64,000 bases of DNA from Microcystis wesenbergii NRERC-220. Its GTDB lineage: Bacteria > Cyanobacteriota > Cyanobacteriia > Cyanobacteriales > Microcystaceae. This document shows, piece by piece, positions 7,306 through 9,661 of this stretch; the first letter of the stretch is position 1, and every line of letters starts with the position of its first letter. The notes below the pieces were generated by a model. That model did not search any database. It saw only the letters and a list, made by a program, of their open reading frames with translations, and was not told the origin of the DNA. The stretch is from the NCBI RefSeq assembly GCF_032027425.1, contig NZ_JAVSJA010000001.1, positions 1,178,001-1,242,000 on the forward strand, in the 5' to 3' direction. The position numbers and the translations under genes were made by a program.

Positions 7306-8193
7306 TCAGGACAAGACTTTCCCTAAACAGGCGGGTAAATCGGCCAATTTTTCTACCACTGTCACCCCAGCTTCTTGAAAATGACGTAAGCTATCTTTTC
7401 TGGTATTCTTAGCGGCAACAGAGTAGGAAAGTTGGTTAGAAATAATTGTTTCTGTATCGCCGAAATTGGTTTCAATCGCTGCATTTAATCCCACAAGATA
7501 GGCAATCACTGGTTTTTCGATCGCCGAGGCAATATATTTGGCAGCCTCGATTTCGGCCTTTCCTCCCACCTGACTGACGAGGAGAATCGCCTCGGTATTG
7601 TCATCTTCCTCAAAAACCTGCAACCATTGGGACAAATTGGAGCCAATAATGCCATCAGTACCCAAATTTACCGCCATAGATTCACCATACCCCGCTGCTG
7701 TTAAAGTTTTCGCCACCTCATCCCCTATGCGATCGCCGCGTGTGATCAGACCGATTGTCCCCGATTGATAAAAGTTCGGTTCACAAATACCCAACCAAAG
7801 ATAATTGGGAATAATTACACCTTGGCTGCCGGGTCCGAGAATTAATGTCCCGGTGGTACTAGCTATCTTTAATAATTCCACCAGATCCAAGGGGGGAACT
7901 TTGGGGGTGACGATAATTAATTGGGGAATACCTGATGCGATCGCTTCTAAGGCCGCATCTAGGACTTGATTGGGGGGGACTAAAATTAAACTGGTTTGGA
8001 TTTCTCCTGCTTCAGCAACGGCCTCGGCCACTAGATCAAACACTGGTATCTCTGCGATTATCTCACCACTGCAGCCACTAGCCACTCCCGCTACTAAACA
8101 GGTTCCTTGGGTTTTCAATCTTGCTGCATAATATTTGCCAAGGGGTCGATCGATCCCTTGCATAATTATCTGATCTTTATCTGTCCATTTCAT
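7306..8193 (-). CDS. Succinyl-CoA synthetase alpha-like protein lacking the phospho-histidine
   Basis: 295 residues, collinear with E. coli SucD (289). The N-terminal CoA-binding fold and the ligase domain are recognisable (GPGSQGVIIP, VGGKAEIEAAKYI, EKPVIAYLVG, FQEAGV). The segment that should read GHAGAI around the phosphorylated His246 reads GDTETI, with Asp at residue 246. Glu208, which stabilises the phospho-histidine, aligns with Gln208, and the GPNCPG motif is GPGSQG. The frame is intact and full length, so this is not an ordinary pseudogene. By homology it would be sucD, but normal ligase chemistry looks impossible; a structural or different role is inferred. The beta-like partner lies 283 bases upstream on the same strand. 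Confidence 0.8.
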   Translation of the reverse strand: MKWTDKDQIIMQGIDRPLGKYYAARLKTQGTCLVAGVASGCSGEIIAEIPVFDLVAEAVAEAGEIQTSLILVPPNQVLDAALEAIASGIPQLIIVTPKVPPLDLVELLKIASTTGTLILGPGSQGVIIPNYLWLGICEPNFYQSGTIGLITRGDRIGDEVAKTLTAAGYGESMAVNLGTDGIIGSNLSQWLQVFEEDDNTEAILLVSQVGGKAEIEAAKYIASAIEKPVIAYLVGLNAAIETNFGDTETIISNQLSYSVAAKNTRKDSLRHFQEAGVTVVEKLADLPACLGKVLS

Positions 8194-8476
8194 ATATTAA
8201 GTGTTGGGAGTTGTTTCAGTTATCAGTAAACAGTAAACAGTAAACAGTAATCAGTAATCAGCTTCTGAAGGCAAGAGTCAAAGGTTTTAAGTAGTCGTGC
8301 AAAATTAATTTCCTAGTGAAGATAGGCAAAAGGCAAGAGGCAAAAGGCTTCGGCCGTGAGATCAGCCGAACGGCAAGAGGGGGTTAGATATGTGTAATTA
8401 ATTTTGCTTAGGTACTTAGATTGGGCCCTTGTGAACTGAAAACTCACATCTGATCACTGATCACTGATCACTGATT
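8194..8476. repeat. Heptamer short tandem repeats between the two SCS-like genes
   Basis: CAGTAAA units are repeated at 8226-8247 and merge into CAGTAAT units. TGATCAC units occur near 8452-8474. The middle part has AGGCAAAAGGCAAGAGGCA-like purine-rich text that recurs elsewhere (for example 10830 and 43560). No gene is seen. The repeat separates two genes that would otherwise be a tight operon. Confidence 0.75.
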
Positions 8477-9661
8477 CTAGGCTAATTTAATGGCTGCAGT
8501 GACCACCTCTTCTAAAGACTCTAACCAATGAAAGTTAACATCAGCTAAACTCTGACTGAGATCGATCGCTTTGCTGTCAGCTAGGACGCGAAAAATTATT
8601 TGTGGTGGGGTGGGATTGAGAAAAGATCGGGGTTCCAAGGTTTGTCTTTCCTGTCGGGTGGCCCGGATCGTTCTTTCGCCGCTGCCAGGGCCGGGTGATA
8701 ATGGGCTATAACTGCGGTAGTAATTGCTAATACTCTCGATCGCTTTTTGGCCAAAGTCGGGATAACTGATAATATCAACGATAACCACTTTTAAATTAGG
8801 CAATAGTTGGAATTGTTGCAGACCGGCCTCTATTTGCTCGTTTAATTGCTCTAATTCTAGTCTTTCCTCCAGTATAAGCCATGCCGCCAGTTTTGCCCCT
8901 TTGCTGGCTAAGGCATCCCAGACAGTGGACATCAAACCCTGGCCATTGCTAATCACGGCTATTCGGCCAGTTTGATCAATTATCGACCAAGGGGATTGTA
9001 ATTGGGGTGGGGTCAAGGCTAGGAGATCGAGATGTCTAGCTAAAGCGGCATCATTAACAGTTATTTTGCCATCTAGGGCCATCACTTCCCCGGCTTCGTT
9101 GATACCCAAGGGATTAATCTCGATAATATCGAGATCTTTGCTGACAAAGAGACTATACATTTTTTCGAGAATTTGACTGATAGACTCGATCAAAGACCCT
9201 CTTAAACCCATAGATACGGCTAATTGCCGACAGAGATAGGGGGAAAATCTCGCTTCGATGACCACTTTTTGCATGGTTGCCAGTAAACTGTCCACATCCA
9301 TCCCCCCTTGACTCGCACCCAGTAAAACTGGTCTTTGCAGATGATAATCGAGTAAAATGGCTAAAAATATCTCCTGTTGCGGATTATACCTGGCTTCTGC
9401 TAGGATTACCTCTGGATATTCTCCGGCGATCGGTAAATGAAAGATAGCATGGGCAGCAGCGATCGCATCAATGGTATTAGCGACAAATCTCACTCCTCCT
9501 GCTTTTCCCCGGCCTCCCGTGCGTACCTGGGATTTCAGCACGATAGGATAGGGAATGTTTAATCTTTTTAGTCCCCCCGGTTCGTGGATTGGTTGGGAAG
9601 GTAAAATGGGGATACCTACTTGAGCAAATATTTCCTTGGCTTGGTATTCGAGTAAATCCAT
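8477..9661 (-). CDS. Succinyl-CoA synthetase beta-like protein with altered ligase domain
   Basis: 394 residues, close to the usual 388. The ATP-grasp part is well kept (MDLLEYQAKEIFAQVGIP at the start, VRTGGRGKAGGV near residue 47, LDIIEINPLGI near 178). The C-terminal ligase domain is not: the GGGA loop and the NIFGG segment of E. coli SucC are replaced by unrelated text (AWLILEERLELEQL, DIISYPDF). A hydrophilic insert rich in Pro, Arg and Gly lies near residues 318-350, encoded around 8600-8720, and interrupts the last part of the domain. The changes parallel those in the alpha-like partner, pointing to joint loss or change of the phospho-relay. Confidence 0.8.
   Translation of the reverse strand: MDLLEYQAKEIFAQVGIPILPSQPIHEPGGLKRLNIPYPIVLKSQVRTGGRGKAGGVRFVANTIDAIAAAHAIFHLPIAGEYPEVILAEARYNPQQEIFLAILLDYHLQRPVLLGASQGGMDVDSLLATMQKVVIEARFSPYLCRQLAVSMGLRGSLIESISQILEKMYSLFVSKDLDIIEINPLGINEAGEVMALDGKITVNDAALARHLDLLALTPPQLQSPWSIIDQTGRIAVISNGQGLMSTVWDALASKGAKLAAWLILEERLELEQLNEQIEAGLQQFQLLPNLKVVIVDIISYPDFGQKAIESISNYYRSYSPLSPGPGSGERTIRATRQERQTLEPRSFLNPTPPQIIFRVLADSKAIDLSQSLADVNFHWLESLEEVVTAAIKLA

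Follow-up and report, generated by a model that had tools for sequence, protein, structure and literature searches.

A succinyl-CoA synthetase-like gene pair without the catalytic histidine is kept under purifying selection in Microcystis and related Cyanobacteria

In the 64,000-nucleotide stretch of Microcystis DNA analysed here (the window), two minus-strand genes encode proteins that are intact homologues of SucC and SucD along both subunits, and from which catalytic residues of succinyl-CoA synthetase (SCS) have been lost. The gene pair is kept and protected by selection despite this loss, and probably has another job. The explanation towards which we lean is a maintained pseudo-succinyl-CoA synthetase, which would hold ATP, would not carry its phosphate to succinate, and would act as an adenylate-responsive scaffold or regulator. 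A sequence-only reading of the window had described the substitutions and proposed loss of SCS function. What it had not foreseen is that the trait is widespread in the order, that it has arisen at least twice, and that the divergence of other SCS motifs is older.

The gene pair and its lost catalytic residues

The SucD-like alpha subunit (295 aa) is encoded at positions 7306..8193 and the SucC-like beta subunit (394 aa) at 8477..9661, beta preceding alpha on the minus strand. Both are complete open reading frames at these coordinates, as the sequence-only reading had stated. Pfam searches recognise CoA_binding (48.1 bits, cut-off 22.3) and Ligase_CoA (31.3 bits, cut-off 24.5) in alpha, and ATP-grasp_2 (120.7 bits, cut-off 29.5) in beta. 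The scores fall below the cut-offs of the NCBIfam models for SCS, both for alpha (TIGR01019, 204 vs 353.2 bits; NF004230, 207.4 vs 336) and for beta (TIGR01016, 166.4 vs 375.55; NF001913, 159.1 vs 370). The malate-CoA ligase and ATP-citrate synthase models are also below cut-off (NF010647, 101.9 vs 604; PF24948, 28.6 vs 83). Identities of 94-97% between beta and named records agree with the assignment to Microcystis. A second, canonical sucCD copy was looked for in the Microcystis genome and none is present, the genome having one Ligase_CoA match, a single alpha match and a single beta match. The spacer between the two genes (8194-8476, 283 bases) contains short repeats such as GATCAGTGATCAGTGATCAG; in another genome of the sample (G097) it is about 105 bases long.

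Alignment to solved SCS alpha chains bears out all three alpha substitutions that had been proposed. At the E. coli GHAGAI site, residues 245-250 read GDTETI (7444..7461, minus strand), His246 being replaced by Asp. At the IGEIGG site, residues 206-211 read VSQVGG (7561..7578, minus strand), with Gln in place of Glu208, and the GPNCPG site, which holds Asn122 and Cys123, has become GPGSQG (residues 120-125; 7819..7836, minus strand). The Asp, the Gln and GPGSQG are found in 9/9 Microcystis rows. The Rossmann loop is also altered, since the canonical Thr-Gly of QGxTGxxG is Asp-Arg in Microcystis (QGIDRPLG in the window; 8137..8160, minus strand), and the Lys42 site is occupied by H, Q, C or L across the nine rows. 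In SCS, this loop and Lys42 presumably have a CoA-phosphate role. A conserved histidine at a shifted position was searched for in the window alpha and none was found; its sole histidine, residue 271, is common to 8/76 rows of the clade described below. Within the window's family (f1), the catalytic histidine is absent from 15/15 alphas, of which 13 have Asp and 2 Asn.

The two halves of beta differ in what they have kept. The ATP-grasp half (residues 1-225; 8987..9661, minus strand) retains KSQVRTGGRGKAGG, EINPLGI and MALDGK, and its active-site residues K46, G53, R54, K56, E99, E107, E197, N199 and D213 (E. coli numbers) are conserved in 9/9 Microcystis betas. In the C-terminal ligase half (residues 226-394; 8480..8986, minus strand), EERL stands at the GGGA site (8858-8869, minus strand) in 9/9 Microcystis rows, and DIISYP at the NIFGGI site (8759-8776, minus strand), where the nine betas read DIISYP (5), DIVSYP (3) or DIVGYP (1). 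We take GGGA and NIFGG to have a succinate-binding role in the ligase domain of SCS. The earlier description of the GGGA and NIFGG segments as absent beside an intact ATP-grasp half is right for the motifs, which are gone. The ligase half itself has diverged, yet it is present, since profile-profile comparison by hhalign relates it to canonical betas with 99.2% probability (E 6.7e-20, 136 columns).

Divergence older than the histidine loss

The phylum sample comprises 292 genomes, with alpha matches in 183 and beta matches in 117 at E <= 0.001, many of the weak alpha matches being frames of more than 700 residues. Of the 83 genomes sampled in the window's order, 81 have beta and 80 alpha; one alpha miss (G237) is uninformative, beta there lying 236 bases from the contig end. 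The stretches compared come from the 81 order genomes with a match, 9 other Cyanobacteriia and 12 phylum genomes outside the class. Named loci were added from the best 80 of 426 relatives, and alpha was found in 69 of them.

Motifs at sites that bind succinate and the CoA phosphate in SCS are nowhere intact among the Cyanobacteriia rows compared. Beta NIFGGI, beta GGGA and the Thr-Gly of alpha QGxTG are intact in 0/146 Cyanobacteriia rows, whether His-bearing or His-less; the departure from textbook SCS therefore predates the histidine loss. Among the 12 rows outside the class, NIFGGI is intact in 7, GGGA in 11 and the Thr-Gly in 12, and N..GGI is found in 12/12. The loss is graded within the 146 rows, the GG of NIFGG being kept in 6 (5 of them His-bearing), the first GG of GGGA in 13 and the loop Gly in 3. 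On the tree, several partial keepers (G011, L255, L256) are placed close to the root of the class. The His-bearing pairs that were scored (G289, G011, G099) exceed the window scores, yet they also miss the NCBIfam cut-offs.

Distribution and history of the histidine loss

Alignment against E. coli and the cyanobacterial homologues confirmed the histidine loss reported for the window and showed it to be shared by 64 of the 80 alphas sampled in the order. It extends to 5/5 sampled genomes of the genus containing Synechocystis salina, and the canonical-site histidine is absent from 6/6 genomes of genus g17, which includes Limnothrix sp. RL_2_0. E. coli and the 11 tree rows from outside the class keep all of His, Glu, Asn and Cys. 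Among the nine other Cyanobacteriia, one (G286) lacks the histidine at an uncertainly aligned position; its alpha histidine loop (L115) is rearranged, with extra residues, and may represent a third loss. In g17, alpha reads CHDAGT, CHDAST or CHNAGT (L263-L267), a histidine preceding the canonical site by one residue in 5/6 genomes, and Tyr takes the place of this early histidine in the remaining one (L262). L231, which also has the histidine one residue early, is one of these g17 genomes. Two genomes carry a separate 90-aa frame matching beta residues 1-78 with 64% identity (G051:C1:1011193-1011426; G233:C1:721756-721989, which falls within L116). In both, the frame shares a contig with the complete beta gene, of which it is perhaps a partial copy.

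The main tree was built from 158 rows of joined alpha and beta columns, the alpha motif columns being left out. It requires three changes of histidine state, namely in a 31-row clade, in a 76-row clade and in G286. The 31-row clade (SH-aLRT 100) consists of His-less rows of family f5, which from its placement would be Nostocaceae-like. The 76-row clade (SH-aLRT 97) groups His-less Microcystis, Synechocystis, Crocosphaera and Pleurocapsa-, Spirulina- and Limnothrix-like rows. With 58 chosen rows and a mixture model, two changes of state are needed. Holding all His-less rows together as a single clade is rejected for the same 58 rows and model (p-AU 0.00764).

Two losses and one loss followed by one regain (in the G005 and L237 lineage) have an equal step cost. 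Two losses are favoured because the replacements differ between the clades, with Gln in 28/31 Nostocaceae-like rows versus Asp in 52/76 and Asn in 17/76 rows of the Microcystis clade, and because G005 and L237, the His-bearing sisters, have Glu208 intact. From these comparisons, the favoured reading is that the histidine was lost at least twice.

Glu208 has largely followed the histidine, Gln replacing it in 31/31 rows of the Nostocaceae-like clade and in 42/76 of the Microcystis clade. Across the 146 Cyanobacteriia rows, both residues are kept in 36, neither in 104, Glu alone in 4 and His alone in 2; the exceptions are thus Glu in 4/108 His-less rows and Lys at the Glu208 site in 2/38 His-bearing rows. 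This joint change of His and Glu goes back to two main events, a number with which an independent-pairs test cannot reach significance. The Nostocaceae-like clade has gone further, beta D213, presumably a metal ligand, being Asn in 31/31 rows and G53 being Glu or Asp in 29/31. Twelve positions of these rows have swapped one conserved residue for another, and four of the 12 are catalytic or motif positions (alpha E209Q and H247Q in Met numbering, beta D213N and G290R). These swaps look like the substitutions that would be chosen for silencing an enzyme with its fold kept.

Selection acting on the pair

Pooled Nei-Gojobori dN/dS ratios for the Microcystis set (n=9 sequences) are 0.10 for alpha and 0.15 for beta, with 0.084 for the N-terminal and 0.24 for the C-terminal part of beta. 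For alpha and beta, respectively, the ratios are 0.10 and 0.15 in the His-less Nostocaceae-like rows, and 0.11 and 0.14 in the His-bearing rows of family f6. Lower values are found in the His-bearing rows of family f2 (0.055 and 0.049). The diatom endosymbiont group (G147, G183 and G268, with G143) gives 0.22 and 0.17 from three usable pairs. The pair is under purifying selection, the ATP-grasp half being the most conserved, and after the loss of catalytic residues selection is nowhere near neutral. The sequence-only reading had suggested that an alternative TCA route would relax selection on SCS; the ratios are no more relaxed than in the His-bearing f6 relatives, although the His-bearing f2 rows are lower.

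Decay would be another way to explain the missing residues. With a 2-oxoglutarate decarboxylase bypass, SCS would be dispensable and the pair would be on its way out. This would suit the faster evolution of the C-terminal half of beta. It would also suit two genomes belonging to the same genus (G054, G121) that lack SucCD-type matches to both subunits (no alpha match, and a weak beta match only, in a frame of more than 900 residues), as well as at least 17 other Cyanobacteriia without an alpha match. Such decay is nevertheless very improbable, because none of the matches in the order (80 alpha, 81 beta) contains an internal stop, and because the pair is kept in diatom endosymbionts, from both Rhopalodia and Epithemia (L196 and L199, on the same contigs as G183 and G268). 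Ratios of 0.10-0.15, with none near 1, also disfavour pseudogene drift, in agreement with the sequence-only reading, which had argued against simple decay.

Likeness to known systems and possible function

The window pair resembles SucCD (TIGR01019/TIGR01016) in the homology of both subunits, the kept ATP-grasp residues and the beta-alpha order. It differs by the absence of the phosphohistidine, Glu208, NIFGGI and GGGA, by the altered QGxTG loop and by its scores below the NCBIfam cut-offs. A close comparison within the phylum is with His-bearing cyanobacterial SucCD, as in Leptolyngbya sp. (L232) and Microcoleus vaginatus (L260), where none of NIFGGI, GGGA and the QGxTG Thr-Gly is intact either; these pairs keep GHAGA and GEIGG, however, and branch outside the His-less clades.

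Outside the SucCD family, the NDP-forming acyl-CoA synthetase domain of Pat/PatZ is a relative of SCS. In these proteins a related fold has lost its catalytic histidine and is kept as a regulatory domain, and such dead domains of Pat enzymes are described as acetyl-CoA sensors (PMC8556138). The idea of a sensor or regulator thus has a precedent, since dead synthetase domains sense acetyl-CoA in Pat. Unlike Pat, a single chain fused to a GNAT domain, the window pair consists of two separate subunits, in which Pfam searches at E up to 1 found no GNAT domain. Another SucD-like protein is AllF (FdrA), from oxamic transcarbamylase, for which no SCS activity is reported to have been detected (PMC8550087, PMC11326118). 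On the window pair, however, the PRK06091 FdrA model scores 25.4 bits, its cut-off being 433.

In this superfamily, a histidine on a swinging loop is described as delivering the phosphate of ATP to the acyl site, some 30 angstroms away (PMC11494057). Because the histidine is absent, the two half-sites cannot be coupled by the known route, and from this established mechanism a loss of SCS function would follow. Repurposing of the pair is favoured, its role being putatively that of a sensor, a scaffold or a new ATP-dependent enzyme. In the scheme that we prefer, alpha and beta would still form a complex and beta would bind Mg-ATP or ADP. In the absence of the histidine, phosphate would not cross the ~30 angstroms to the alpha site, and the succinate-CoA reaction would stay idle. 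Nucleotide binding by beta would then set the conformation of the complex, which may serve as an adenylate-responsive scaffold or as a regulator of a partner, by analogy with acetyl-CoA sensing in Pat. In the Nostocaceae-like relatives, from which beta Asp213 has been lost too, the role may be mainly structural, or another ligand may be bound.

A new ATP-dependent reaction of beta is the main rival. Its ATP-grasp half would phosphorylate or ligate another acceptor, with alpha and the ligase half of beta binding the new substrate. The conservation of the nucleotide site would be expected of such an enzyme. In the 76-row clade, seven of the nine residues checked (K46, R54, E99, E107, E197, N199, D213) are invariant in 76/76 rows and G53 is kept in 75, K56 being Lys in 53, Arg in 18, Gln in 4 and Leu in 1. 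The dN/dS ratio of alpha, as low as that of beta, points the same way, and AllFGH provides an example of a SucD-like protein serving carbamoyl-phosphate chemistry (PMC11326118). The sites where a new substrate would bind tell a different story. The former active-site positions of alpha vary widely across the clade, and the 74 beta positions conserved in at least 95% of rows all lie within residues 1-199, with none beyond. The Nostocaceae-like branch lacks Asp213, and no gene context names a substrate. A new enzyme is therefore possible but doubtful.

The gene neighbourhood gave no clue to function or substrate across 182 genomes or loci. Besides the pair itself, the real neighbour met most often, in 56 of the 182, is a 616-aa protein that has no Pfam match. 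Its gene is found upstream of alpha, on the opposite strand, in 28/31 f5 genomes and 20 named loci (L210:1894-3741, minus strand, and homologues), and no such frame stands beside the pair in the window. The two genes are about 16 kb apart in one Microcystis genome (G095; L148, L149) and lie in separate sequence stretches in 16 of the 99 genomes having both; co-expression is therefore not assured.

Physiological implications

Searches for the OGDH C-terminal domain, MetA and methylmalonyl-CoA mutase found no match in this genome; in 14 control genomes they gave matches in 6, 8 and 8, respectively. The alternative TCA route invoked by the sequence-only reading fits both these absences and the characterised 2-oxoglutarate decarboxylase of Microcystis (PMC10418658).

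One observation at odds with a pseudoenzyme comes from a mutant. Synechococcus PCC 7002 is taken here as a member of genus g17; if it is, the phenotype of its sucCD mutant is that of a His-less pair. Deletion of sucCD in this strain is reported to have lowered succinate and malate (PMC5160925), as expected of an active enzyme, which counts against the pseudoenzyme reading; in the quadruple mutant SZ007, succinate is described as not lowered (PMC5160925). The pair might thus still be an SCS or a related acyl-CoA synthetase, in which another residue, such as Asp, would carry the phosphate, or in which ATP use would be bypassed. Besides the mutant, the Asp at the site in most rows of the Microcystis clade and the early histidine in five of the six g17 genomes speak for it. 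We consider it improbable. Asn replaces Asp even within Synechocystis, so that Asp is not essential; none of the Cyanobacteriia rows has kept NIFGGI, GGGA or the Thr-Gly intact, and the genome lacks the three matches named above. Asp as a new phosphate carrier is itself disfavoured, Asn occurring in close relatives.

The SucC and SucD proteins have been quantified in Synechocystis (PMC9175036), where upregulation of the sucD transcript is described for early light (PMC4959675). In Synechocystis studies, SucCD figures as an enzyme that works or probably does so (PMC7133116, PMC9855186, PMC9175036), and the Synechococcus 7002 sucCD mutant was interpreted on the same basis (PMC5160925); one review states instead that cyanobacteria lack succinyl-CoA synthetase (PMC11546870). 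A statement that cyanobacterial SucD lacks the histidine was not found in the titles and abstracts that searches of open-licence literature brought up, which is weak evidence of novelty.

A wider reading, speculative and rather unlikely, is that Cyanobacteria twice turned SCS into a non-catalytic, adenylate-reading regulatory complex tuning C4 and CO2 metabolism. If this were true, mutants and flux models that treat SucCD as an active TCA enzyme would need reinterpretation. More generally, if the complex is not a ligase, the source of succinyl-CoA in these organisms, or their need for it, can be put to a direct test, and the function to be sought is that of a pseudoenzyme which many cyanobacteria have kept.
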